Source: Epinephelus fuscoguttatus (Eukaryota > Chordata > Actinopteri > Perciformes > Serranidae). From it: a stretch of DNA of 64,000 nt. Both the position numbers and the translations under genes were made by a program. Within the stretch, counting starts at the first letter, position 1; every line of letters starts with the position of its first letter. Of this stretch, positions 1,645 through 64,000 are shown one piece after another. The notes below the pieces were generated by a model that ran no database searches, was not told the origin of the DNA, and saw nothing but the letters and a program-made list of their open reading frames with translations. The stretch spans positions 27,111,603 through 27,175,602 of the forward strand of contig NC_064770.1 in NCBI RefSeq assembly GCF_011397635.1. The letters run 5' to 3'.

Positions 1645-4600
1645 ATGTCTGAGGTCAGGGTTGACTTGTATGAACAGGAGGCAGGGACAAACTGTGACCA
1701 GGGTGGACCCTCTCCTGACCCTGTGAAATCCCCCACTGTGGAAGCTTCTGGGCCTGACCTGCAGGGGTGAGACTTTCTTTCACACCCAATTAACTTGCTG
1801 TATATGAAAGTATATGAGATCACATTTATGTTCATATTCCCTCCAGTCTTCTGCCTGCGGGTCCCCCATCCTCATCAGACGTCAGCCCCTCACCCTCCAC
1901 TGAGACAAGTGGCTTGTTGTCATTACCATGGGAGATGGTGACCCACATTGCCTCACACCTTCCCGCTCAGTGTGTCATCACTGTGCTGCCAAAGGTTAGT
2001 TTTAAATTGCTTTTGGCTCATCGCTTCCATAAAGTTCCTCTGAAGTTGTCTTGTTGGCTAATTTTCATGCTAATTTGTTTGTTCAAACACAATATCACTA
2101 AATAACTATGTGATATATCTGTCTGTTTCACTCTGTACCCTCAAAATATATTAGGAAAACTAACAGTCTTATGGCTTTTCAGTAAAGTTTATCTCTGAAA
2201 TGTATTTTTGGATGGTGGCTCGTCTGTGACGTGCCAAACAGCGTAGGAGAAACACTAATTTGTAAATTGAAAGTGCTTTATTCAGTGTTTTGACTGGTTT
2301 TAACCTTCTGGTTTGTTTGTGTTGGAGAGGATTAGACCTCTGCGGATAATTTTGCTCTCGGTAAAAACCTTCTGAACAACAAACACTGAAGGAGTTCTGA
2401 CTGTCAGAAGTTTCAGCTGGTTGTAATCTGCAATCCTCACATTTATGAAGCCATTTTTTAAAAGTATTTTGAATCCTGCATTGTTTATATTCATGCTCAC
2501 AAGCGCAGTTTTCCTCCTCCCTGCCTTTGTTGGCACATTGCTGTGTTTGTTGGTGTGTTACTGCCACATATTGATCAGTGGAATAGAGTGAAGCCATTGA
2601 CAGGAATGTGCAGGTGTATCCAGTTCATATCGCTATTCTAGTTCAGAAACTCCACAGTGAGCCTTATGACTTTATCAATCTGTAACATATTGGACATTTT
2701 CCCTCTTCCTCCTCTTTTCAGGTCTGTCATGCACTGGGCAATGTGGGTAAGGACAACACCGCTTGGCAACTCAGGGCACGCAGACTAATAGGATCCCGAG
2801 CTGGCTTCCCAGTGGGGCCAAGGGAGGACTTTGACTGGCCTTCCGCATGCCTAGAGATGGAGCAGCTGATAACCTGCTGGACAGGACAAGCACACCTTGT
2901 GGCCAGACAGACCCAGGAGGATGCGGGTGAAAGGGACCAAGTGAGGCAGCAGCAAAGGGCAGGGCAGGATGGGGAAGCCATAGCAGAAGCGCAGGAAGAT
3001 GGTAGAGAGGATGAGGTGGAAGGGGTGGGAGTGGAAGCGCAGGAGGTTGCGTATGATGTTGATGAAGGGATGGAGGTGGCAATGGAGGGTGAGGATGAGG
3101 AAATGCAGCCCATCATCGCAGGTGGAGATCAACTGGCACGATTGAGAGAGGAGTTTGAAGAGAGGCTGGAGGATGATGCAGCAGCACTAATGGAAGAAGA
3201 AAGGGACCACGCGATGGTGTTTGGTGGTAACGAGGGGCAAGATGATGCTCTTAATCACCAAGAAGACTTGGTGGACCCCAGGAATCTGGGTAATGGAAGA
3301 CAGGGAGCAATGGAGCAACGTCAGACCCCCAGAAGTCCTAGCCCACCTCCAGCGCTGGAGTGCATCACCCTACCTTCAGGCCACATTGCCCAGGTCAACT
3401 CAGTGCTCCTTGTGGGGGGAGTGGGGGCAGTTTGTGCCACAGGCTCCAGAGACTGGAATGTCAAACTGTGGGATCTACAGGCAGGCCCTAGTGGCACGCT
3501 GCTGCATACACTGGGAGGACAAGGTGACTTCAGCACTCATCGGGGCTGGGTGTGGTGCCTGGCATCTCAGGGGCCTCTGTTGGCCTCAGGCGGGTTCGAC
3601 AGTACGGTGAGGCTGTGGGACCTACAGGCCGGTGGTGCAGAGAGGGGCCTGATCAGGGCTGGAGCTGCTGTCCTCTGCCTGTCCTGTCAGACGGATGTAT
3701 TGCTGGCTGGTACATTTGACAAGAGGGTCAGCATGTATGACACCAGAGGTGAGGGGGTTTAGCATATCACTTGCTTTTCAGTTTTAGTGTGCATGAAGTG
3801 CAAATAAAATCTAAAAATGTGATGATAGAGCGATGACGTGTGTCATAAATCTTAAATCAATACACTTCTCAATTAATCTTTGATAGCAGTTAGCTTTGTA
3901 AGAGATTATAGAAAGAAATCACTATATGACATAATTCTGTCTACAGCTGCTGAGCCCCTGGTAAAAAGCCTCCGTCTCCATGGTAACGCTGTAATGTGCC
4001 TAGCTGCAGATGACAAGTACATCATCTCTGGGAGCAAAGACTGCACTGTGGCCATCTATGACCGTAGGGCAGGCAAGGGCTTGAAGAAACTTCGGGTAGA
4101 CGCAAACACACAAACACACATTGCATTGCATTTGTGTGCATATCTGCGCAGATGCACCTGTACATAAAGACTAACTCCAATCAACCACTCCATTTCTAGC
4201 TGAGCTCTTACCTGCTGTCCATGAGCTACAGTGGCTGTGAGGTATGGGCAGGAGACAACAGCGGTATGCTCCACTCCTTTTCCATGCAGGCGGGGACCCT
4301 AAAACCCCTGTCCCAGTTTGATGTGGGACACACAGCTCTGGTCACTGGCATCCACAGGTCCCCTGGGAGCCTCTACACCTGTTCATCTGATCGCACTGTC
4401 AAGGTCGGATGAGGCAGATTCATTGTTAGCTGTTAAACCAACTCCTGAACAGTCTTTATTGTAAATTCTGGTCTGTATTGCAGGTCCATATCCCTTGTGC
4501 TCCTCCGAGGACGTTATGCACACTGAATCACCAAACTGCAGTCAATGGGGTGAGTGCTTTGTGTCACAACATATAGATGATTAAAATGTGCAGTTGTTTA

Positions 4601-6528: not shown

Positions 6529-8034
6529 TTAAAGGTCCAGTGTGTAGGATTTGGTGGCATCTAGCACTGAGATTGCAAACAGTGGCGCCCTCTAGAGGCG
6601 GCCCCTGCTGATGAAAATAATTGGTGGCCTATGTTAGGGTTTTCAAGAGGCTGTGGTGCGCTCTTTTTTTCTTTTGTTTTAAGCTAATGCAAAGGCATCG
6701 ATTGGTACCAGCCATCTTGGCAGAGCTTGTCAGGAAGGGGACTAAGTAACATAAGGTAACAACTAAAGGCCTTTGCACACTGAGTCTGTTTTTTACAGAT
6801 GCGTGTCTTTATCTGTCAATATGTCAGTCCTTGCACAATGTGTTATTGATGTGTTTTTGTGTCGCAATACGTGACAAGATAAAAAAAGACATTTCCCTCT
6901 CTGCCTCTCTCCTCTGGAGTTATCTGTCTGACTGACATCACTTCCTCCATGTCTTTCATTTGGCACTGCGGCTGGTGGAGCTGGAGCTGTCCTCCCTCTC
7001 TCTCTCCACATTCTGTGTGCGGTCCACATCCTCCTCTTCATCATCACCTGCCTGAATATTACTATCTGACCTGGTGAAAGTAGCTATCTGAGTTTAGCAA
7101 TGATTCTGTGCGCCCTGTTCCTCTGTCTTGTCGCGGCTGTGTCCTGCTGCCACATTTTCTTCACTGATTCTTGGTCCAGCGTTTCTAAATGCACTGACAG
7201 ATGCGAAAAACACAAAATAGAACCTGTTTCGAAACTTTTAATGACGGATGAAAGTATTGGACTCAGTGTGCAAATGTAAAGTCTTATTTATCTTTAGATG
7301 TGTGACAATTCTGGACGAAAAAACAGACTCGGTGTGCAAAGGCCTCAACATGGTCATTTTCAAAGAGGGTTCCTTGGGTCCCACCTCAAGATATCCGAAT
7401 GCTTTGAATACTCGTCAACTTGAGACATGTTCCTAGTAGATGTTTTTGTTCCTTTCAATCAATGTACTCCTTAAAATTAAAGCTGTATATTTGTCTTTTA
7501 AAGGAAAACCTACTTGAAGAACAGTGAATCGCCGAACACTTATATAGATACGTAACACATTAAAACAGGATTGTCCTGGAACTCAAAATATTAACTGTAC
7601 CAGTACTCGTCTATGCACATCAGATAATTAGCAATGTTAACTGTAAAATAAGAAACCAATAACAGCATGACATAGCTGTAACTAGCAGATATACTTAAAC
7701 AGCGGACGTGAATACCTTAAATTCAGTTATGCATTTTGGTTTTGGTGAGCCACCCCAAAATCTTCAGTGGCCTCATTTGGCCACCCCTGTGAAAAATATC
7801 TGGGGGCACCACCTGTTGCAGAACTGAAACTTCTCCTGTGTGCCAAGCATGTAGGTGAGCTACAGTAGCCAACGTGAAAACACTTTGTATGGAGATATGA
7901 ACGGCTCATTCTAAGGTAACAATAACACAGTGATTCTTATTTTTAGGTGATGATAAACTAATGAAAACAGTCATGAGTATTTTATACCATTTATACCAAT
8001 AAATGCAGCTAAATCCTTCACACAGGGCCTATTA
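6529..8034. mobile_element. TTAA-type MITE-like repeat, copy 1
   Basis: The left end is TTAAAGGTCCAGTGTGTAGG at 6529-6548. The right end at 8011-8034 is a worn inverted copy (AATCCTTCACACAGGGCCT). The right interior, such as CGGCTCATTCTAAGGTAAC near 7900, matches the right arms of two further copies at 33.1 kb and 53.8 kb. TTAA at the ends fits elements that duplicate a TTAA target (piggyBac or Kolobok style), but no transposase is present. A separate inverted-repeat element at 6768-7344 sits inside this copy. Confidence 0.6.
6768..7344. mobile_element. Nested inverted-repeat element of 577 bp
   Basis: The left end reads GGCCTTTGCACACTGAGTCT, continuing into GTTTTTT. The right end at about 7316-7344 is its inverted copy with one change (CACACCGAGTC). 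The terminal repeats are about 27 bp. No convincing coding sequence or clear target-site duplication is visible, so the superfamily is undecided. It interrupts the larger TTAA-type repeat and is therefore younger than it. Confidence 0.6.
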
Positions 8035-25704: not shown

Positions 25705-26390
25705 GAATGTGCCAGGGCTGACGTCAAAACCCGGAAGTTTAGCATCGCGCTGGTTCCCAGAAGAGAAGGTGAATGTGATTTTTGCATTGTGTTTTGGATT
25801 ATGTCAGAAAATAAGCTCTGTGGCTAACACAAGTTTATGATACTTACAGGTTTTGTTCAGTGAGATAATCTTCACATATGAACACCTTTCATACCACATT
25901 TGAAGCTTAAATGCGATCGCCAGAAGTAAAAAAACTAACGTTAGGCTTTAACGGACTACGTGACTACTCCGCGGTCGCATGACTCTTGATGTCACCGCCA
26001 CTAAGCTTTCAACTGATTTCGGCCGCTTTATTTTAAAAACATTGTATAATGGGGAAATCAGACTGTTTAAGCTAAATAAGAAGCTGTAATGGCGGACTGC
26101 CAGCACTCTCGTCTGTTCGGGGGTGATGACGTTTAATGTCCCCGACAGGGTTTGTAGTCGTATTGAGCAACTTGTTAGCAACCGCCTTTTTTACGACACG
26201 TAAAAGCTTCAAAATTAACAAGTGTTTTATATCGTAGAACAAAACCTGAAACTCGCTTAAGCTTTTGTTAACCACAAACCTTATTTGAGGCATTTTACCA
26301 AAATCTCATTCAAAAAACATACTGACTTTTAGACGAGAGAACCGGAAGTGCTAAAAGCGCTAACGGAGTTCCGGGTTTACTGGCACACTC
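25705..26390. mobile_element. 686-bp inverted-repeat element inserted inside a SINE
   Basis: The left end GAATGTGCCAG, then ACCCGGAAGTTTAGC, is inverted at the right end (GCTAACGGAGTTCCGGGTTT, then CTGGCACACTC). It is flanked by CATA on the left and TATA on the right. It carries no transposase. Its position divides one SINE into two pieces. Confidence 0.65.
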
Positions 26391-28480: not shown

Positions 28481-28530
28481 GAATTATTCACATTTTCTGT
28501 GATTTACAGGCATACACAGACACAAAATAT

Positions 28531-29445
28531 CAAAGTAGGATATTACCATATAGATGTAAAATACTGTTTAAGTTTTTATTTCTTACCTTTTTCTGCTGTA
28601 TTAGTGTGTATGAATAGTGAAATGAAATTTTATAAAAGCATTTTGGCCAACTATGAATGAAGATTTTGACATTTTTATAGGCACCTTTATCGCTTTGCTT
28701 GTCGGTTGCACAGACTTTTAATGACCAATGGCACAAAAACTAAAGCGGGATATTATCAATTTAGATGCAAAAACACTGAATAATTTTTTATTTCTTACCT
28801 TTTCTGGTGTGTTTGTGTGTATAAATAGTGAAACTATTTTTTTACAACCTAGATCTGTTCTACAATAACATTTTGAGCAATTATGAATGAAGATCTGGAC
28901 ATTTTTACAGGTGCCTTTGTCGCTTTACATGTATTTTCATATATTTTTGGTTACACAGGCTTTTATTGAACAAAAGCACAAAAAAATCAAAGTGGGATAT
29001 TACCAGTTTAGATGTAAAAACACCGTATACGTTTTTATTTCTTACTTTTTCTGCTGTATTTGCGTGTATAAATAGTAAAACAATATTTCTTACAACCTAG
29101 ATTTGTTCTATAAAAACATTTTGAGCAATTATGAATAAAGATTTGGACATTTTTATAGGTGCCTGTCTCATTTTCCATGTATTTTCATGTATATTCGGTT
29201 ACACAGACTTTATGAACAAAGCCACCATAAAATCAAAGTGGGATATTATCAGTTTAGATGTAAAAACACAGTATACATTTTTTCTTTATTTATTTTTCTG
29301 TCATATTTGTGTATATTAATAGTGAAATAATATTTTTTACAATCTAGATTTGTTCTATAAAAACATTTTTGAGCAATTATAACTGAAGATTTGGACATTT
29401 TTATAGGCGCCTGTGTCATTTCTCATGTATTCTCAGTTGCTGGCA
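28531..29445. repeat. Short satellite: four tandem units of 210-248 bp
   Basis: The phrase AAAGTGGGATATTA with small variation starts at about 28531, 28741, 28988 and 29234. Each unit continues through TTTTTATTTCTTAC, CTGCTGTATTTG, ACAACCTAGATTTGTTCTAT, AAAACATTTTGAGCAATTAT, GACATTTTTATAGG and a GTTACACAG step. The first unit is shorter (about 210 bp). Open frames inside are products of the repeat, not genes. Confidence 0.85.
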
Positions 29446-29706: not shown

Positions 29707-31200
29707 ATATGATATGTTCTATTTAAAGGAAATAATTGTTAGCTTTGTCAGTGTAATCGTGCAAATATGTCAACATTTCCTGACATTACTAGATACAGAT
29801 GTCAAGGATTGAAGCAAGCATGGTGACAAAACTGACACTGCACGCTCATAGTTTAGATGCATTTGTTTCAACTTCAAGGCACTTTGTGAAAAACAAAGGC
29901 TCAACATAAATCTTAAATTTGTAGTTACAGATCTGTATTATATGAATTCTTTCTTTAATTTGGCTTTTGATCCGTTACTCTCGCTTCCTTTTTCTAAACC
30001 AGCGTCTTGCTAGAATAGTTATGTGTTCTCTCATTAACATGGCATCATGGAACTTGATTGTCAGTTTTCTTTTGTTGTACTTTTCCACCATGTAGTCATC
30101 TCTGGCAAATTTTTAGCTATGCAAATGTATGGTTAAGGTGTTGGAGCGTGCAGAGATTAAAAGAGATAAAAAGTTAATGTTGCATAATTGTACCGAGACA
30201 AAGCTAAAGCAACAGATCAGATAATAAATTTTTGCTCCAGTAAAATTAGGTCGTGGACAGGCAGTTAGGTGCCTTGAGGGCATGCAGACTTTCATCGAAA
30301 CCAAAGACATAAGTCAGCACTTTACACTACTGTCTGTCAGTGTGAACTCTGCTTTGTTTAGAATAGAGAAACCGCATTTGATGTTTTGTTCTTAATCTGG
30401 AACAAGAGAAAAGGTGATAAAGATATAGAAAGATAACCCGTAAGAAGGGTTTATAAATATAGCCTGTATATTGTGTTTTTATGTAAGATTTATTCTATAG
30501 TTGTAGGCACAGTTGGAAAAAAAACACAAGACAGACTGCTTTTTATTTTATTTTTTTTAAAGAATTTTAATAAATTTAAAATAAATTTAATTAAACCACA
30601 CACAGCCATCACATTTATTTTATACATTATGGTTCGAAAAGCAAAGGCACATAAGAAAAAACTGCAAATTAGCCCCTCTTGTATTTTATTTTATTTTTTT
30701 TACAAACATGGTACCAACAACAGACAATGAAACATTACAAGGCAATTTTGTTTTTAAAGCAACACATACAACAGCATTGAAACAAACATCGCAGTAGACC
30801 TCATAAAATATATATTATTACAGGCAAGCTATGCATTTCAAAGCCTATCTTTTTCTTATTTTTACATTGATTTCTGACTTAAGTGGCTTATATGGTTGCA
30901 TGTAAATTAAAGATTTTAATGGTCTGTAAATGCAATAAGAGATCAGGCATAACTCCAAGCAAAGTGTTTCATTACAGAATGTGAGTGTGTACATCTGCTG
31001 ACAAAAACATGTTGCAGCTGAGAGCCCAGTGAGACAAATAAATGGTTAACATCACCCAAAATAATACACCATAATCACAGTCACTTAAACATGCATGTAT
31101 GCATCGAGACATTAAAATGATATCTCAGGCTGCAGTTATTACGGTGGCATTAAAGTGAGCAGTGTGTGTGTTTGTACCGCGTGTGTTTGTGTGTGTGTGG
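29707..31200. other. Gene-free AT-rich spacer downstream of mir-24
   Basis: No coding or structured RNA signal was found. If the microRNA primary transcript is long, its 3' end falls here, but no termination site can be chosen. Confidence 0.3.
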
Positions 31201-31205
31201 AAAGG

Positions 31206-31285
31206 AGACCAGTCCCCTGTTCCTGCTGAACTGAGCCAGCCGACGTCACACACTGATTATCAGCACAGCAGGCACAGGAGACCGA
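31206..31285 (-). ncRNA. mir24: mir-24 precursor hairpin
   Basis: The minus strand contains TGGCTCAGTTCAGCAGGAAC followed by AG at 31217-31238, an exact match over 22 nt to the conserved vertebrate miR-24-3p as I know it. The facing arm at 31252-31275 (GTGCCTGCTGTGCTGATAAT, then CAGT) is a variant of miR-24-5p and pairs with it around a short loop (GTGTGACGTCGGC). miR-24 is processed from the same primary transcript as miR-23 and miR-27; it is the most 3' member here, as in other vertebrates. Seed GGCUCAG is intact. Confidence 0.95.

Positions 31286-31435: not shown

Positions 31436-31465
<30 letters not shown>
31436..31465. repeat. (CA)n microsatellite
   Basis: CA run of about 28 bp just upstream (in minus-strand sense) of mir-24, preceded by weaker CA-rich sequence at 31325-31353. 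Confidence 0.85.
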
Positions 31466-31472
<7 letters not shown>

Positions 31473-32240
31473 ACTGAGAGACCCTGGCAGCCAGTGATAC
31501 AAATGACGACATAGGATGACATGTTGCTCGCCCTACAGGAACAGGAGCCTTCTTCGACACTAATGAGACAGCTGACATTTAGCAGACACTGACACACTGA
31601 AGCCCCACAATTTTAGCTAATTCAACACATTACCAGTTATTATTACCAGCAGCTTCTGGGCAGTGATACCAGCTCCCATAAACCCCTTTCAGCCACAGTG
31701 CATCGCCCTTTTTTTACGCTTTCACAACACAATAGTGAGTCATCTGTGGACCACGTGCACACACTGTCGAACCCTCAACACACACGCTGTCACGGCAGAG
31801 GTGATTACGTGTGAGATTGACTTTGGTGGGCCCATAAAACCAGACTCTTTGAGTCAAACCTAGCAAATGAGGAGCGGTGCGTTTTTTTCCTCTTTATCGA
31901 CAGTTTTAAAGGGGGAAGTCTGTGATGAGCAGTTTTCACATGTCACCTGGCAACGAGATACACTATACTGTGTAATCAAGTTTCCATCCAAATTTAGCAC
32001 AAATCTTAAAAGCGAATTTCCTGGCAAGCTGCGAAAGAAAATGCAAATTTATGCACATCTCCATCCAACAGCTGTCGGCCCTAATTCTCCAGTCAGGTAC
32101 CATTAAACTGCTGCAGAGCTGAGGGTACAATGAGATAAACCAGACCTTAAACCAGTGCAGATGATGATTTAACTATGATGGAAATATGCCGTTTATGTTT
32201 GTTTCATGTACAATTTTGAGGGAGGTTACAGTGTCTTCAT

Positions 32241-33213
32241 TTAAAGGAACAGTGTTTGAGATTTAAGGGGATTTAAGGGGGGTTAGTGGTGTCTCGTGGT
32301 GAGGATCGCAGATTGCAACCAGCTGGAACTTCTCTCGGTTAGATTTCCTTCAGTGTTCATTGTTCAGGAGGTTTTTACTGGGAGGTCTGCTCCTCTCCAA
32401 AACAGACGGAGTGTGTGATTAAAACTGGTAAAGTAGTTTCACTTTACAAATCTGTGTTTCTCTCATGCAATCTGGCTCGTTGCACACGCTGTTAGCTTCA
32501 CACCTGCTAATGTGTGCTCGCCTCTTTTCTCTGATAACTTCAGATGCAGACGTCCAGGAGGTTTTTAACATGAGCCGAATTAGCCACAGAGGTCTCCTTC
32601 TCTTCACGACAAACAGATAAGGTGATTTAAACCGATAAAAATCACTGAATAAAGCAGTTTCACGTTAGAAATCAGTGTTTCTCTGACACAGTTTGGCTTG
32701 TCAGAGATGGGCCACTAGCCCAGCACCTGCTCATGTGTGCTCACCTTTATTCTCTGATAACTTAAGATCCAGACATTCAGGAGGTTTTTACCATGAGCCG
32801 AATTATCCGCAAAGATCTCTTTATCTCCAAAACAACCAGAATCAGTGATTTAAACCGATTAAAAACACTGAATAAAGCAGTTTCATGATAAAAGATCTCT
32901 GTTTTTCCAACACTCGTCATGGACAAGCTGCTAACTATGATAGCTGATATGAAAACATAAATGTCCCTATCTAGAGCCAGTGTTTGGTTTGTCCATTCTG
33001 GGCTACTGTAGAAACATGGCAGTGCAACTTGGTGATCTCTGTGAACGAGGACCTGCTACCTATGTAGAGATAAACGGCTCATTCTAGGGTAACAAATACA
33101 CAATGCTTCTTATTTTCAGATGATTGTACACTAAAGAAAACATACTTATATACTTATATTGCATTCAATTTCTGCTAATATATCTCCCTAAATCCTACAC
33201 ACTGGACCTTTAA
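32241..33213. mobile_element. TTAA-type MITE-like repeat, copy 2, inside the microRNA cluster
   Basis: The left end is TTAAAGGAACAGTGTTTGAG and the right end is AATCCTACACACTGGACCTT followed by TAA. TTAA stands at both ends (32241-32244 and 33210-33213). Inside, a unit of about 220 bp recurs (AGGAGGTTTTTAACATGAGC / CCGAATTATCCGCA / TAAAGCAGTTTCACGTTA), giving two to three partial tandem units. The element occupies most of the gap between mir-27 and mir-24. Confidence 0.75.
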
Positions 33214-33439
33214 ATTGAAAGTATCATTAAAACAGGTGGATAGAGACGCTTTAAATCTAAGGAGTTTCATATCTGGGGTCTCTAAAGGATATAAAATGGC
33301 CGTAGCTCGACCATGTGTAAGCAGCTTTTTGCAGGAGATGCTGTCATGCTCATCTGAGGTCTGGTGTTGATGTGAAGAGCAGTGGTTTAATGCAGTGCAG
33401 CCCCTCCCTGACCTTTACTCTCCTGCTGCCGGCTGCAGC

Positions 33440-33520
33440 CCTGTGGCGGCAGAACTTAACCACTGTGAACATGGCGAACACTCACTGTTCACATGTGGGT
33501 TAAGTCCTGCCGCCGCACAG
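33440..33520 (-). ncRNA. mir27: mir-27 precursor hairpin (27c-like)
   Basis: The minus strand of 33449-33469 reads TTCACAGTGGTTAAGTTCTG then C. This is miR-27-3p with T instead of C at position 11, the form I associate with fish miR-27c. The opposite arm (AGGACTTAACCCACATGTGA, then ACA; about 33486-33508) carries the compensating changes and pairs along most of its length. The strong imperfect palindrome, TGTGGCGGCAG facing CTGCCGCCGCACA, extends the stem below the mature region. It lies about 190 bp downstream of the mir-23 mature sequence on the same strand. Confidence 0.93.
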
Positions 33521-33591: not shown

Positions 33592-33622
33592 AATTAGTGT
33601 GTGTGTGTGTGTGTGTGTGTGT
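33592..33622 (+). repeat. (GT)n microsatellite between mir-27 and mir-23
   Basis: GT run of about 26 bp between the two hairpins; on the transcribed minus strand it is a (CA)n tract. Confidence 0.85.
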
Positions 33623-33647: not shown

Positions 33648-33734
33648 ATGTCAGCCATTGGAAATCCCTGGCAATGTGATTCAGTCCTGTAGTCTCAAAA
33701 ATCACTCTGCCAGGAATTCCCCTGGCCAACAGAG
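33648..33734 (-). ncRNA. mir23: mir-23 precursor hairpin
   Basis: The minus strand of 33660-33680 reads ATCACATTGCCAGGGATTTC then C, the exact miR-23-3p (miR-23a form). The 5' arm at about 33698-33721 (GGGAATTCCTGGCAGAGTGA, then TTTT) is complementary and resembles miR-23-5p. It is the most 5' member of the cluster, giving the conserved order 23-27-24. Confidence 0.95.
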
Positions 33735-36072
33735 ACGACTAGACAGTCTGTGGTGAGTGAGGGACTTGAAAGCATGCAAATACAAATAGTACACACAATA
33801 ATAAACCTCCTCCATCATTGTCATCTCTCACGTAAGATGCTCTATCCCTCATCTATACCTCTGTGTGAAAGAATTATCACAGTAGTCCGATGTGCTATGT
33901 CTTTGTCATTCACAGGTCGTAGTCACTGCGCTTTCTCAGCCCCTTGTGCACTGTATGTACGTGGTTCTCGCGACTCCCAGACTTCCCGTGGCCTCTTATA
34001 AAAATAGCTTTTCAATGACAGAATGGAGAATTAGGTTAGAAGGAAGTGGCCAGTCAAGTGGCACTCCCTTTAAAGACGTTTGCCCCGCTCTGCTCTACCC
34101 CTTTATCTGTGCCCCTTGTGTGGGGAAATTAAAAGAAAAAAAAAGAGCAGGAGAGCAGTGGGCCGTGTTTCCTCTGCTGCTGCTGCAAAAATCTCCTCAG
34201 AAATTATGAGGAAATTCCATGTCGAGTAAAGAAAGCTGATACTGTATTTATATGTTACTGCTTCTTATTAGTGCCTGTCAAATGAGACCTGATATCAACA
34301 AGCATGTGCACTCATCACCCCTGCAGCAGCAACTATTACTCTGAATTCCTTTTTGGTGATTTTTACCTGTCTGGACAGGACATATTTCCCTCATCGAGTG
34401 TCATTCCTCAAGCTCCAGATCCACACTGAGTGCAATTTGCCGTCCACTTCAAGTCTCTTTATTTTCAGCTGCATGAATATTCCACCATGTACAAGGTATG
34501 AGTCAGTGGGACACTTTTGGGGAACTCCAGACTCTAAATAAGTTTTAGCCGGCTGCCTGTTGTCACTGCGGGCCTGCTGCTGAGCTGTGCCAGGGACACA
34601 GTGAACTTGGGCCCTGTCACTACCACTGTATCACTGTTGTCACAAGTCTGCTGCAGCCAGGTCCGAGAGTTTGGAAAGAGGTTTCCGAAAATAGTACAAA
34701 AGCATCTTTAAGGAAGCTGAATGTTTTAAATACCACTCAGAGAGGTTGTATTCCAATCTCTGAGCGGCCAACCTAAAACTTGGTTGGTGCAGAATGAAAA
34801 CTCTGTTTGATGTGCAGATATTTTCTCGTTCCCTCCAGGCCAATGTTCTTTCTGTCAGACTGTGGTCAGATCAACCAATAACACCAAATTATAACCACTC
34901 AGGACACACTGTGATTTTGTTGCTGCAGGGAAGAAATTAGAAAACCGATGTTTCTTTCTCTGTCTGCTCTCTGTCTTTGTGAATGGCTGCCTTTCACACC
35001 GTCTCACAGATTACACAACATGAAGCATTCTGTTTTAGGTGTTTTTGTCACTCGATTCAAGGAAAACTACCTAAAAGTGAATCTCTGAACACTTAAGTTG
35101 TGAGCGTCTCCTTAAATTCAGTTTTATTTTATGAGATGTGCTTTATATCCCTCGGCCGGCCTCCACATGTTCACAATAAAACGTGCTGTCTCAAGAGAGA
35201 AGGTCATTTAAGGTCCCGGCACCCATCAAAGACAGTGCGCTAACTCCTTTTTAACTCCTCTCCTCCATCAAGCTAAAACCCTGTATCCCGCCATCCTTTC
35301 ATCTGGCAGTGGCGCGTCTCGTGTGTTATTTTCTCTGCCTTTTCATCTTTTCCATCGGTTTCTCTTCCCCTCCGCGTTCCCCCCGTCGAACCCGCAGCCG
35401 TTAATGTCTATGAGCTCATTCCTTCCCTTCCCCTGTAATGACGGCATTCTGGTTGACGCACGCTGTCCAACACCTCACCTCAAACACTCGCTGTGAGGAT
35501 CCCAACACGTCTCACTTTTGCATTTGGCCTGTCGTGTTTTTTGGGTGCTGCGGCGGAGCCAAGCGATCCTGTTGTTACACTTTTCTCAAATTGGATGTTT
35601 ATTATGGTTAGGAATAATGATAAGGTTCTACCATGTGGGCTGCGACTTATTGGCAGCTCGTAATTGTGCCAACGTGTTGCATCCTGATGGAGGCGTAGAA
35701 TAGGAAAATTAGTGTCACCGGGTGACGATCGGCAGCAGATGTGCCCCAGTAGAGTCAAAATGTTTTTAGAGAGCGTCTTCGTGGCTTGCAGCCTTGTGTG
35801 TGGGTGCTTTGAAGGTTTTAGGGTGTACACTTTTACGCTTTGTGTGTGTTCTGCTGAGTTTATATTCGCGCACACGACATATGGAGGCCCCAAGTGTAGA
35901 CGTGGCCACTGGCTGTTTTCTCAAACCGTCTCTCCCCTTCAGCCACAGTCCAGAATTGACATTGCCGTTTACACAAGGGCACACAGTTAAGTGGAAAAGC
36001 CTCTGTTGAGACAGCTGGATCTCAACCCCTTGTTGCTTCAACACATATCTTCTCTCTCCCTATGCCCTTGTG

Positions 36073-40330: not shown

Positions 40331-42646
40331 ACTTGGGCGAAAGAGTCGATTGTTATTTTAAAGCTGTTGCTCTGAATCACACTTTCAGTAAAAGGCTGAT
40401 GATTTGACCTTACATAATAGTGCGTCCATGCCGAAATAGTGTCTGTTGAAGTCATTACCTCATCAGTTCTGAATCATTACTGTGACGTTGTTGTGAAGTG
40501 CTCTTGTCTCTTGTTTTGGGGAAACTTTAAGCTGCTTTTTTATGTTGAGAGAGACTTAAACTGGGGCAGAAGTGCAAGGTTACACTAATCTAAGCAAAAA
40601 GAGATGAAGCAAGGTTGATTTTTCCAGATCACTCAAAGCTAGAGACTATTTTAAAATGGAAATCATCTCTATGGGTGTGAGCGTAGGTGTAGATTCTCAG
40701 ACATCCTCCTCAGTATTTGGAACATATGCGTTTGTCCCCACAAAAAACAAAAAGTAGTAGACTTTAACAAAACTTTTACAAAAAGACATTAACACCATAA
40801 ATTGATGCAGAAAAAAGGCACACATTGGTGCATAAATTCACCAGATTGCAGCAAATTAAGTGTTTAATGCAATTGTTTCTGTTAGTTGACCGCCAACCCC
40901 CTCTTTCATATGTTTCCTCATTCAAAGTTGAAACGAAACCTACGCCCTTGGGCATGAGTCAACAGATGTAGTTCAAAGTGTAAATTTAAGTGCACCAGTT
41001 AGCATGACCTTAACGTCCGAGTCATAGCAGGGGAAAGCCGTCTCCCCTGCGTTTTACTGACAAATATTTATAAATCATCAATGATGCATCAGTAGTGACA
41101 GAAATCACCCACTTGTAGTGAACATCACATGCATTACTGTCTTTGCAACTTTAGATTTGGGTTCAACTGTTGTATTATGAGAGGTGTTTGTGTCCGAGCT
41201 TGGTTTGATCTGCACCTGTCAAGCAAAGGACCCCCTCCACCCACCCCCCACCTCCCACCTATACACACTCCCCTTCCCCACAGAGAGACAGTAACACGAG
41301 CTTCAGAGAGGGGCTATTAGAGGCTTTATGACTTCCCCTTCTTCCCCTGAAGCCTTTGGGTGTGTGTGTGTGTGTCTGAGCGGCAAAGTCCCGCACAGAC
41401 AACCACGCCCCTGTGTGAGAGCGGACGTCACACATTCCACACACACATACACACTTATGTGTCTCCTAGCAACACATACACTCAGGCTTAGTGAAATGAC
41501 TATGCCAGTAAGACACATGACCGCGACACATCGTTTATCTTCGGATGGGATAATGTTTTGTTTATGGACCTCAGTTTCTATGTTGTCTTCAGAGGGGATT
41601 TACAACTTACAGAACAGCCGGAGTTGAATGAAGTATAATAACTTTTTGATTGTTAGTTTGCAAGGATTACATGTGGCGAGAGTGAACTTGGCTATGATGG
41701 AGTGGAGCAGAGCTTCATAAATTTCCAACTCTTCCTCCTTGTCTTTTTTCTCTTTATGTCTATATGTGTGTCTGTATCACTGCATGACCACTGACTATCT
41801 GTTCATATCATGTAAAAGGTCAATGTGAGACTCAATAGTTGAAAAGTCTTCAGACAGAGTTAAGTGGGTCGCCTGTGATAAATTCGTCTCTGGTTAAAAA
41901 AAAAAAAAGTTTCCATCTCCATTCTGTGGTCTAAACCTCGATGCGTGTCATGCGCACTCCTCTCTTATTTTGCCTCACAGAGGTGACAATTAGTATCACC
42001 GCACGCAACACCAGTACTGTAATGACTGAGATACAGTTCTGAAAGAAAGATGCTCTCAGATGATACTCATCACAAGAAATCCAGAGACAACTTTCAGTTC
42101 CGACCAATACCAGATCTTTCAGCCTGGGCGAAATATGATCCAAATAAACTCGGTATGAAAGGAGGCCATATCTTGCTATTTTTCCACCGATGCCAGTTTA
42201 TTGAGGGCAAACTCTGGTGCGCAATGTTCTGCAATCATTCCTGCTGGCAGTGCGGGTAGTGGTATTTGGAAAATGGTGCTGAAAGGGAGTTCTGTGCTTC
42301 TTGTTGCCCCGAGGCCATACTCTCGTCTTTATGGTTCTATAAAACATCATCAGCTCTATGGAAAGTGTAGTGATATGTCACAGAAGGAGAATGAGAGTAG
42401 AACGGACACTGGACTGTTTGCCATTGTCATTTGACAAGTACAACACAAAATGGCCATTATTGTTAGTTGCTACAGTGACAACACATGGCAGCAGGGCTGT
42501 AAAGTGTGTGACACTCACTTCTTTAAGAACTCATTTTTGGTCTGTTCTTACCCCTGTTTTTTCTTTTAAAGCTTAATTGGCTTATTTCATCGTAAAACAC
42601 TTCATTCAAACTCAAGAAAACCAAAATAACACTCACCAACACTCTC
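40331..42646. other. Gene-free spacer
   Basis: No supportable gene or RNA. A short TG tract lies at 41360-41374. Confidence 0.3.
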
Positions 42647-52309: not shown

Positions 52310-53971
52310 CTTCCCATAGGAGATAAAGGGGGATTAAGTAGGATGAGGATTGCAGATTGCAACCAGCTGAAACTTCTCCTGGTTAGAATTCCCTCAGTGT
52401 TCATTGTTTAAGAGGTTTTTACTAGACGCCAAATTATCCGCAGAGGTCTCCTCCTCCCCAAATCAAACAGACCAGGGGTCTCACTAATAAACATTGCACA
52501 AAATTAGGCCTGAAAGAGGTGTAGGCCACTTCCCATGGAATAGTTGTGATCTATAAAAACACTAGATGGGAGAAACTTTAAACCATGCTTAGAAACATTT
52601 CAGAGACAGGAAATTGGTGACGCAGATGGTGAGGTGGAAGCCTGATTGTAGGAATTGTCGAATATTTTTTTGGCGCACGCCATTTTTGGCTTTTGTCTGT
52701 ACTTCAGTTTTTGGTATGGATCCTACACGCTGTTTTTTAAATGAGACCCAGGTGTTTAAGCCAGCAAAAACACTGATTAAAGCAGTTTCACATAACAAAT
52801 CACATTTCTCCTCACTTGCCACATGCTAATTTGTGCAGGTTTTCACAGGGAGCCAAATTATCCGCAAAGGTCCCTTTCTCTCCAGAACAAACAGACTAGA
52901 TGATTTAAATCAGCTAAAACGCTGAATAAAGCAGTTTTACAAAAAACAATCAATCAAACAAATCAACGTTTTTCCTACGCTGTTTGGCTTGTCGGTGATG
53001 GACGGCTGGCTCCACATGCTAATGTGAGCTCACCTTTTTTCTCTGATATCTCAAGATCCATACATACAGGAGGTTTTCACAGGGAGCCAAGTTATCCGCA
53101 AAGGTCTCCTCCTCTTCAAAGCAAAATATCCTGGTAATTTAAACCAGTAAAAACACTAAATAAAGCAGTTTCATGTTACATATCTGTTTTTTTCTGATGC
53201 TGCTTAGCTAACTACGGTGGCTGACGCGAAATGTTAAAAAACGAAAATGCAAATGAACCTATCTGGAGCTAGTGTTAGGTTTGTCTGTGCTGGGCTACTG
53301 TAGAAACATGGTGGTGAACATGGTGATCTCCATAAATAATTATACAGCAGTAATATGTGTAACAAAGTCAAATGTACATTTGTAATATCAGGTATTATAA
53401 TTACACAAAATTAGTTTCAGTTGCTATTACCTGACATGCTTAGGCCTCCATAGTCAATATGTGGAACATTTGCTACTTTGGGGGTACCTCACCTATGAAG
53501 GCGTGTCTCCCGCCTCTACCTCTCCTTTTTTTACTCCATGGGAGAGGTGAACGACATTGCTCTCGTAGTAACGTCGGTGTTTTAGCGCTGTTAAGCTATG
53601 TTTACAAGTTCATTTTTCAGCCTAAACGTATTGTGTAATATGTAACATGGCCGCCCTTTTGCTGTTGTACTCCATGGGAGAGGGGCTTGAGTTATATGGT
53701 CGTAACTGGTGGATTTTGCCTCTTGCTGTCAGCTGTCAGGAATAAACTGAGATCGCCTCCAAAGATATCCACGGTCTGGGCCTCTTCATATCAACACAAC
53801 ACAGACAATACTAGAATGGTTACACCTATACAGATGTAAACTGCTCATTCTAAGGTAAGGAGACACAGCAGTTCGTAATTTCAGGTGATTTTACGCCAGA
53901 GAAAACATACTTATCATATTATATTCCATTTCTGCCAGTATATCCCTAAACCCTACACACTGGAGCTTTAA
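52310..53971. mobile_element. TTAA-type MITE-like repeat, copy 3, expanded interior
   Basis: The right end (CCTAAACCCTACACACTGGA, then GCTTTAA) matches the family. The left end is damaged near 52320, but GATTGCAGATTGCAACCAGC follows as in copy 2. The internal unit (AGGAGGTTTTCACAGGGAGC / CAAATTATCCGCAAAGGT / TAAAGCAGTTTCACA) recurs at about 52430, 52840 and 53075, so this copy has more units than copy 2. About 480 bp of unrelated sequence lies at 53340-53830. Confidence 0.65.
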
Positions 53972-56900
53972 AGCTCACGAAATGGAACTGACTGCAGAAG
54001 ACAAGAAAAAAAAGATGGAAAGAGAAAGAGTCATAAAGCCGCTGAGTGGAAGTTAGTAGTCAGCTCTGTGAAGTGGAGCAGTGAGAATGTGCAGTATATC
54101 AACTTTTATGATTCTGTAAAAAAAAAAAAACACCCCAGATCCATCTCAGCAGGGAGATTAAGGGGTCCGCACGGTGGTCTATTTTCTGCCACTCTGTCAG
54201 GGTCAACAGAAGCCAAGACACATAGTCAGCGTGGGATGAGCCATGGTCTGTAACTGTGAGTAAATCACGGCCTACCCACACATAAATCTGCAGACTCCTC
54301 AGTGTAAATAAAGTTAGTCATCCCCACCACCTAAAGGACTTCTCCACTGAAACTACAGGTCATGGGAAAATAAACCCGTCAGTCATAAGGGACAGAAATG
54401 ACGAACATAAGAACAATCAAATTATTTATTTTCTCAAAACATTATGTGACCAGCTCTGTCGTCAAAAAAAAAAAACTTTCCGCTTTCTTCTGTTTGTCAC
54501 CAAAAAAGACTCAATGTTGTGCTCAACCAGGTGGCCTTCCTAAATGTGTAGGCGTCAGACAATAAATGGGTGGTTTAGCAAGTTAAGCCAAGGTGTGCAC
54601 AAACTGGGTGTGTCTGTGTGTGTGTTTCCGCTCCCCCCACCCATGTGAAGGGTGCTCTTGGGAGAGGGTATGTGCCCGCACTCGTGCCCCTCTGGTGCTT
54701 CGGCTTCCCTCCATTTTGGCGTGTGCACGCCCCTGTCCCAGCTCTTTGTCTTTGCTCCTTTCATCTTTCTTACTTGCAACTTTACTTTTTGTTTCTTGAT
54801 TTTGTCGGGGTGAGCACCAAACGCCCAACTCGTTCCCCCTCTCTTTTCTTTTTTCTGCCCTCGCGCTCTCCCTCTCCGTGCATGTTGGTGTAGCTGTCCT
54901 TATTTGGCTTCCCTTTGAGTGAGTGGGAGTGTGAGTATGAATGTGACTGTGTGTGTGTGTTTCCTCCTGACTGTGAGTCACTGCTTGTCTGACTCACGAG
55001 CGCTAACAAAAACACACAGTTGCCATGGGGACACACTCACCCCCCCCCTCCCCTCCTTCCTCTCCCATCTCTCTCTGTCTCCCCCTCCCTGTCAATCTCT
55101 GGTTTCTCTCTTCTTGTGGGCACCGCTGCATCCCAGGCAGCCCTGGCACTGTTACAAGGGTGGCACTCTAACTTGGGTGGGATGGTGGTGGTGGTGGCGA
55201 GGTGGAAAAACACAGAAAAAAAAAAAACCCAGAATAAATGGAAAGGTGAAAACTAAAAAAAAAAATTGTTGATACTGAAAACTTAAATTAAAGTCCAGAA
55301 AGCTGCAGGGGGACACAAACCCAGGGTGCGAGACAAGCAATCATCTATCATCAGTAGTAAGTAGAAATGCCTGCATTGGCTGCGACAGGCTAAACAGAAA
55401 GTGCCCACCTGTGGCTCTATTCTCTGCTTCTGTTCTGCTTTTTACTGCTCTGAAATCGCAGACTGCTTTGAACTGGGCCTGTCCTTTGATGTGCTGGCGT
55501 CACCACTCGGCCTTGCCATAACCTCCAGGGAGCTTGATAATGTGCCCACGTGTGGCATTACATTTCCACAAAGATCAGGTAGGGCACTGGATGTACCCAC
55601 AGCCTCGAGCTGCTGGGGTTTGGCTTAGCCTACTTCCTGGATGTTAAATGCTGGCTGTGCACCACCTAGTGGGCATACAGTAGGTTTTTGTTTCTTCATA
55701 ACTGACAGATAATGTTGCACTGGTCCATTTTTGGATTATAGTGTCATAATGACAATAATGGTTTGACTTACCAACGGATCACTGACATGTCTCAGATGTC
55801 TAGTTGTTAACGGTTCCACCCAAAAGATATCTCTAAACTTTCTACACTTCTCATATTAATTTCATTTTAATAACTGTTTAAGGCCCAAAGAGGCAAAACT
55901 ACCTAACATTTCTTTTTAAATACAGCTAAGATTAGAGAGAAGTACAAAACACAAAAGTAGATCTGTGTTGCAGAACCCCTCAGTGTTCAATCATTCAATA
56001 ATTTTTTTAAATATATATTTTCATGGAAAAGTAGATGAAGAACTGTGTTTGATGGTCGTCATAAGTGTGACCAATGGCTTAATGTGTTGTATCTACCATT
56101 TACTGACCAAATTAACATAATCTCCTATGCAGCCATCAAAACACTTACATATCCCAGCTCAGTTATTAAAACATCTAAAACTCTGTCACAGGCAGTCCTG
56201 AGCATTGCCACTAGAATCATCATCATATCCTAGGGTTACTACTTTACATATCAAAAACCCTTACCCTTACATACATGCTTTGTCAGTGGCCTTTTACATT
56301 CACATATGATGTGCTAAGTACTCATCTCCGTCTGCTGTTGATGTTCCAGGACACGCAACCAATACCGTGACATCAACAGAAGCATGTGGATAGGTTTAAA
56401 AAAAAAACACATCTTGGTTTGGCATTTGGGAAGGGAACACTCAGCTCCTTGGTGAAAGTCCAGGGTTTGTTGGACACATCCAGCCCCCCCCACCCCCTCC
56501 TTTGCACCCCATATGGGCTTTACTGCTCTTGATATTATGTCATTATCAGCAGCATTTCAACCTGACCACACCCTGCAGTGTATCATACCGCCATGATAGG
56601 TACCGTTCGGCCAACCAGTGGCATATCATAATAACGCTAAAGGTTATGTCATTGTCATTGCATAAGTTCAGCATTAGAATTCAACAGCCTGGCTGGCAAA
56701 TAGCCTGTCTCCCCTCATAGCCTATATCTGACCCATTTCTGTCACAATCACTGAAGACAGCATCTTTGTATTTTTAGACAACTGTAAGGTCGTATGCCTT
56801 GTCTGGGCCGTCACCTAGATCCCACATATCCAAAACTTTACTCAAAGTGAACCTAAAGAAAGAAGAGTTAAAGGTTAGGTAGAACAAGAACTATGTATGT

Positions 56901-63170: not shown

Positions 63171-64000
63171 AGTTCATATTCAAAGGGACAGGATCTCAGT
63201 CAACAAGTTGTAGTCTTAAGAGTTTTGTCGTATTATATTTTAACATCTGACAATGTTTCATGAGTTGAGAACGACACTTTTCTCTGACTTTGCGCAGTGA
63301 GCATAAACACATTTTGGTAACGATTAAAAGAGCGCTGCAGGAGTGAGTCCTAAAACGCGGATATGAGGTAGCATTTTAGCACGCGGTTCCCTCATCTCAT
63401 AGTCAATAGGTTAGATGCCTGAGATAAGGTCTGTGGTTAGCACAAGCCTAAGAGACTGTTATGTTTTGTTCTACGACAAAATATGTCAGTAAATACCCCA
63501 CTCAAGAAGCTTTAACGTGTCTTAAGCAAGTTGTTGTAACAAATTAGCTCTTTACTTCTGGCCATTGCATTCAGGCTTCAGAAATCATAGAAGTGATGTT
63601 CATTTGTGAAGATTATCTTGCTCAACAAAACTTGTAAGCATCATACACTTTTGTTTGCCAAAGATTTTATTCTTTGCAAATATCCAAAATCCAATGGAAA
63701 AATCCCAGTGACTTTTTGACAAGGGGACCACGGACGATGCTAACTTCTGGGTCGGCCAACAAACAAATGTCATCCCTGCAGTACTCTATTTCACAGGTGT
63801 GTAACTTCCTAACCATTTCCTTGTAAGTTTTCTACAAAGGATGATGTAATTTGATAAACAAATATAGGAAAACTGAGACAGTGTTCAAGTGGTTTAATTT
63901 CAATTAATTGTAACCTTTAATATTTTACTCAATGCACAGCAGGTCAGCTGAGAATGTAACAAAGTGAAATTTGTGGGGAATAAGAAGTAAGTTAATAAGA
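63171..64000. other. Right edge, presumed intron of the minus-strand gene
   Basis: No exon was recognised up to the window end. Confidence 0.3.

Follow-up and report, generated by a model that had tools for sequence, protein, structure and literature searches.

In the stretch of Epinephelus fuscoguttatus contig NC_064770.1 analysed here (64,000 nt, referred to as the window), a TTAA-bounded repeat lies in a microRNA cluster, in the spacer that separates mir-27 from mir-24. Our preferred reading, with a probability of roughly 0.85, is that a Kolobok-like element inserted long ago into the spacer of a mir-23a-type cluster, that the insertion was most likely neutral and that a single transcript was kept. 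The repeat has the look of an ordinary insertion and does not seem to be what split mir-27 from mir-24. A previous examination of the letters (here referred to as the sequence-only reading) saw a real element but overstated its importance.

Anatomy and class of the element

The sequence-only reading placed mir-27 and mir-24 about 2.2 kb apart, with a TTAA-bounded, MITE-like repeat with inverted ends filling much of the gap between them. The distance is 2159 nt on the minus strand, TTAA stands on both sides of the repeat, and the inverted ends are 78% complementary over 37 nt. The repeat does lie in the gap, and its share can be refined: it is 965 bp long, TTAA excluded, or 45% of the 2159 nt, and it is one copy of a dispersed family. 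When pairs near the element were skipped, none of up to 20,000 random window pairs of the same spacing matched the inverted-end score, and 1 of 5000 reached it when such pairs were kept in. The left end begins with AGGAA and the right end, read on the minus strand, with AGGTC, giving overall termini of AGG...CCT. At 6 of 22 positions the left end differs from the right end, which at first suggested decay of the left end. This reading was rejected, because among the 20 other copies with a left end this end starts with AGGA in 10 and with AGGT in five, and left/right mismatch is common in the family.

The internal tandem units mentioned in the same reading were recovered as three diverged units, and TRF lists no tandem array at the repeat. 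Direct repeats inside the element have spacings of 190–223 nt, and the longer families of them are 70–84% alike. Moreover, identity between units is no higher within the window copy (66–75%) than it is against units from two further family copies of the window (63–77%). The array therefore probably arrived as part of the element; the units were probably present already in the inserting element, with no expansion at the window locus.

The ends and the target site alone lead us to infer a Kolobok-like, TTAA-targeting, non-autonomous element. According to excerpts of PMC9587614, TTAA duplication and 5'-RR...YY-3' termini together separate Kolobok from piggyBac. The window copy has the 4-bp TTAA target duplication on both sides and RR...YY termini (AG...CT); piggyBac shares the TTAA, yet the ends of the window copy are RR...YY. 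Kolobok elements are described, in part of PMC6004289, as mobilised by a transposase with DDE, THAP and H2CH motifs. A transposase supplied in trans, presumably of Kolobok type, probably opened the target at a TTAA, integrated the element there and so left a TTAA on either side. The same part of PMC6004289 also describes Xenopus T2-MITEs, with a TTAA site and AGGRR ends, and Xmix, with an amplified internal segment. By description, the window copy is like T2-MITE/Xmix in its TTAA, its AGG terminus and its amplified internal segment. However, the right end AGGTC does not fit AGGRR, although the left end AGGAA does, and the repeat is therefore labelled Kolobok-like and is not filed as a T2-MITE.

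Table 1. Positions of the cluster, the element and its relatives in the window, and lengths of the mir-27/mir-24 gap in the six clusters of the genome.
Feature	Position	Strand	Basis or length
mir-24 hairpin	31214..31282	-	Rfam RF00178, 71.3 bits; fold z -5.87
mir-27 hairpin	33442..33517	-	Rfam RF00644, 67.6 bits; fold z -7.66
mir-23 hairpin	33653..33727	-	Rfam RF00642, 57.2 bits; fold z -6.92
Putative Kolobok-like non-autonomous DNA transposon copy, including both TTAA	32241..33213	+	Ends and TTAA in sequence; inverted-end control; genome-wide family
Left TTAA target-site copy	32241..32244	.	Sequence; left-end TTAA in 15/20 other copies
Right TTAA target-site copy	33210..33213	.	Sequence; right-end TTAA in 18/28 other copies
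Left terminal inverted repeat, AGGAACAGTG...	32245..32275	+	Sequence and self-alignment
Right terminal inverted repeat, AGGTCCAGTG... read on minus	33179..33209	-	Sequence and self-alignment
Three diverged internal units, starts near 32363, 32553 and 32776	32363..32960 (array end approximate)	+	Self-alignment, unit identities
Truncated family copy	2215..2440	-	blastn
Two family end fragments (from 6529; 7888-8030)	6529..8034	.	Parts of a single copy with an insert, or of two separate copies
Further family copy, interrupted by other sequence, left end not delimited	52344..53971	+	blastn matches including 52344-52423, 52840-53330 and 53824-53972
CpG-rich patch, candidate promoter	35001..36000	-	1.3-2.3 kb upstream of mir-23; 400-bp windows
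mir-27/mir-24 gap	C15, 17.25 Mb		498 nt
mir-27/mir-24 gap	C10		1763 nt
mir-27/mir-24 gap	Window cluster		2159 nt
mir-27/mir-24 gap	C15, 21.04 Mb		2284 nt
mir-27/mir-24 gap	C18		2731 nt
mir-27/mir-24 gap	C6		3785 nt

The repeat family and its age

A search of the genome (1.047 Gb in 26 contigs) with the element returned 9133 candidates at first look. Forty of these were scored, and the list of matches has 48 entries. The family is spread over numerous contigs, and many of its members have TTAA sites of their own. Two features of MITEs are found in the repeat, terminal inverted repeats and high copy number, and its 965 bp are long for a MITE. We compared the window copy with 35 of the 39 other scored places. 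All of these were picked for likeness to the window copy, so the age and TTAA figures given below come from a biased set, and the true spread is probably wider.

With up to 5 mismatches in 20 allowed in end calling, the left end was found in 20 of the 35 copies, the right end in 28 and both ends in 16. TTAA adjoins 15 of the 20 left ends and 18 of the 28 right ends and stands on both sides in eight of the 16 two-ended copies, and its background in those loci is 0.8% of positions; the flanks are other than TTAA at five of the 20 left and 10 of the 28 right ends. TTTAAA had been suggested as the duplicated site by four ends in the window and was rejected: in the wider set the bases outside TTAA vary across copies, and the duplicated site is therefore the four bases TTAA. 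The 16 two-ended copies are 737–777 bp (12 copies), 947–975 bp (three copies) or 1213 bp (one copy) long, with the window copy in the middle class, and these steps fit differing numbers of the ~220-bp unit.

The right-hand module of the window copy has a K2P distance of 0.126 from the consensus of the 35 other copies, or 0.097 with CpG-type sites masked, and those copies, chosen as above, are themselves 0.122–0.189 from the consensus. Among the fetched relatives, the nearest to the window copy is at K2P 0.209 and the median is 0.233. The history of the family looks like one old burst. At assumed substitution rates of 2–5 x 10^-9 per site per year, the age would be some tens of millions of years.

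We also looked for the family in collections of viral and genome contigs. An exact scan for the family end gave no match in either. A second pattern, taken from the core, had no match in the viral contig collection and one in the genome contig collection, in LNZM01000161.1 (an Epulopiscium MAG in GTDB). At about 567–955 this contig is 73.8% identical to the family core by blastn, or 78.5% with gaps left out, and only the similarity of its right part is firm, with an E value of 9e-29; its left part is weakly similar to the left part of the element, and six of 2000 random window pieces scored as high. Epulopiscium is an inhabitant of surgeonfish, and we take the family copy, which lies in the first part of LNZM01000161.1, to be DNA of the host; fish and bacterial sequence appear to have been joined in this contig. 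Patterns of mature miR-27 and miR-24 gave no match in the viral contig collection, and no fish orthologue of the locus came from the family-end, core and mature-miRNA scans of the viral and genome contig collections. The literature search, which included Kolobok MITEs in fish, did not turn up the family end sequence.

Other repeats were also seen in the window. A tandem array at 28521–29435 has about three copies of ~248-bp units. The segments 25729–25930 and 63551–63752 are 75% identical in inverted orientation, and the first of them lies in CpG-rich sequence. A zf-RVT match at 207–563 on the plus strand, just below the Pfam cut-off, is probably a LINE remnant.

Spacing in the six clusters of the genome

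The genome contains six mir-24, six mir-27 and five mir-23 loci above the cut-off, which form six clusters (Table 1). In all five clusters that have mir-23, the 23-27 gap (135–1278 nt) is shorter than the 27-24 gap. The remaining cluster, C15:17252000-17256500, is a mir-27/mir-24 pair with no mir-23 above the cut-off in its 4.5 kb, and all five mir-23 loci of the genome belong to other clusters. Excerpts of PMC1388199 give four or five copies of the mir-23~27~24 cluster in its fish species and discuss fish copies with a lost member, there mir-27; cluster distances are described as enlarged in fishes in part of PMC4144971. Set against these two sources, the window cluster is like the vertebrate clusters in its order 23-27-24, in the presence of several fish copies and in its enlarged distances, and unlike them it has a MITE-like copy in the 27-24 spacer. 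Numeric spacings for other fishes were not found in the literature search.

The sequence-only reading had offered the insertion as the explanation of an unusual spacing, and had set down beforehand that a long spacing without the repeat would speak against this. Such spacing is found in paralogues of the same genome: the gaps of four of the five other clusters span 1763–3785 nt, and none of the 36 family matches in the five cluster regions at E up to 1e-6 lies in a 27-24 gap. At the looser E of 1e-3, six of 82 family matches fall inside the C10 gap, each of them 28–31 nt long. C10 has one family copy near the cluster, on the far side of mir-24. The window gap minus the element and one TTAA is 1190 nt. 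A long 27-24 spacer is thus usual in these clusters, and the insertion is not needed to explain it.

The same gaps bear on the idea that the repeat has been a common part of the mir-23 locus since ancient times and was duplicated along with the clusters. The repeat is old relative to its family, which would suit such an origin, but the five paralogous gaps without a match at E up to 1e-6 contradict it for the paralogues, and the relatives of the repeat lie on numerous different contigs, many of them between TTAA sites of their own. We regard this origin as scarcely credible.

Two of the paralogous gaps, in C10 (L047:3305-3499) and in the C15 cluster at 21.04 Mb (L050:3278-3477), have a common block that is 77% identical over 202 columns, in the same direction relative to the clusters and at similar places in both gaps. 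It is possibly a conserved spacer block. Pieces of it turn up again elsewhere, one of 51 nt (90%) close to a repeat copy on C24 and one of 33 nt (88%) at 40782–40814 of the window, and the block is therefore probably a dispersed repeat. Part of the C18 gap likewise recurs several times near the C15 cluster at 17.25 Mb. Taken together, the block and the C18 piece suggest that other repeats probably sit in the paralogous gaps too.

Across the six clusters the 27-24 spacer ranges from ~0.5 to 3.8 kb, and its length is probably weakly constrained, so no particular reason has to be sought for a transposon copy within it. Among the clusters of this genome the spacer was probably long beforehand or could lengthen freely, and we infer on this ground that the insertion was most likely neutral.

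Transcription and processing of the window cluster

In the window, mir-23, mir-27 and mir-24 all exceed their Rfam cut-offs, lie on one strand (minus) in the order 23-27-24 and fold well (Table 1); mir-23 and mir-27 are 135 nt apart, and mir-27 and mir-24 2159 nt. Mature miR-24 of the window cluster matches the known mature sequence exactly. A CNNC motif is located 17 nt past the mature end in mir-24 and starts at 18 in mir-27, while the motifs of mir-23 start further out, at 21 and 24. Ranked by score among the clusters of the genome, mir-24 and mir-27 from the window each come fifth of six and mir-23 comes fifth of five, which gives no sign of decay in mir-24 alone.

An (AC)n tract at 31437–31474 and a (GT)n tract at 33597–33622 are complementary over 26 nt; they bracket an interval that runs from mir-27 almost to mir-24, and the transcript could form a pairing between them. 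This pairing across the gap was treated as chance, because the window has eight tracts of this type of at least 22 bases.

Left of the cluster, a protein-family scan matched exon-like pieces to a WD40 protein, a G-protein gamma subunit and deoxyhypusine synthase, and right of it there is a match to the C-terminus of an EBP50/NHERF protein. We take the WD40 and gamma-subunit pieces to resemble fbxw9 and gng14, and the neighbourhood presumably resembles the human 19p13 region near MIR23A. Fourteen ranked pieces were scanned in all; the three from the interval 14.5–62.5 kb had no match, so the cluster is provisionally taken as intergenic. The CpG observed/expected ratio reaches 0.94 in the patch at 35.0–36.0 kb, against a window median of 0.39, and judging from base composition this patch is a plausible promoter of the cluster.

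Under the preferred reading of a neutral insertion, one long primary transcript of the minus strand most likely still yields all three hairpins, and the element falls in the portion that is discarded. As reported in excerpts of PMC1904203, human tissues generally show co-expression of microRNA genes that are separated by up to 50 kb. The sequence-only reading had proposed that the insertion could uncouple mir-24 from the other two, and this could occur if a sense AATAAA ended the upstream transcript or if a promoter was brought in. The only minus-strand AATAAA in the gap is indeed inside the element (32746–32751), and a mild CpG rise (o/e 0.71) is present at 31701–32100, between the element and mir-24. 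But one AATAAA is fewer than the 2.7 expected by chance, five more are located downstream of mir-24 (30542–30695), and the stronger CpG-rich patch is upstream of mir-23. Moreover, four paralogous clusters have gaps of 1763–3785 nt with no family match at E up to 1e-6. The uncoupling was left unsupported by these data, and we consider it very unlikely. The gap also contains an ATTAAA at 33386–33391, with 1.4 expected by chance; judged by the motifs, this or the AATAAA at 32746–32751 could in principle end the transcript.

It is likewise quite improbable that the sequence or structure of the element RNA alters processing of the adjacent hairpins, for example through weaker cluster assistance between mir-27 and mir-24. 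Compared with 20 shuffles, the element read on the minus strand folds better (z -4.18), as such an effect would lead one to expect, but the inverted ends and the related units probably account for at least part of this fold. Besides, cluster assistance is described for suboptimal hairpins, whereas mir-24 folds well and has its CNNC at +17, and long spacings exist without the element.

A further reading, in which the old copy was put to use and its sense AATAAA or structured RNA splits or tunes the primary transcript, is in our view highly unlikely. If it were true, miR-24 of the window cluster would be expressed apart from miR-23 and miR-27, unlike in the paralogous clusters. With their different spacers, the six clusters of this genome form a natural comparison for the effect of spacing on miR-24 output.
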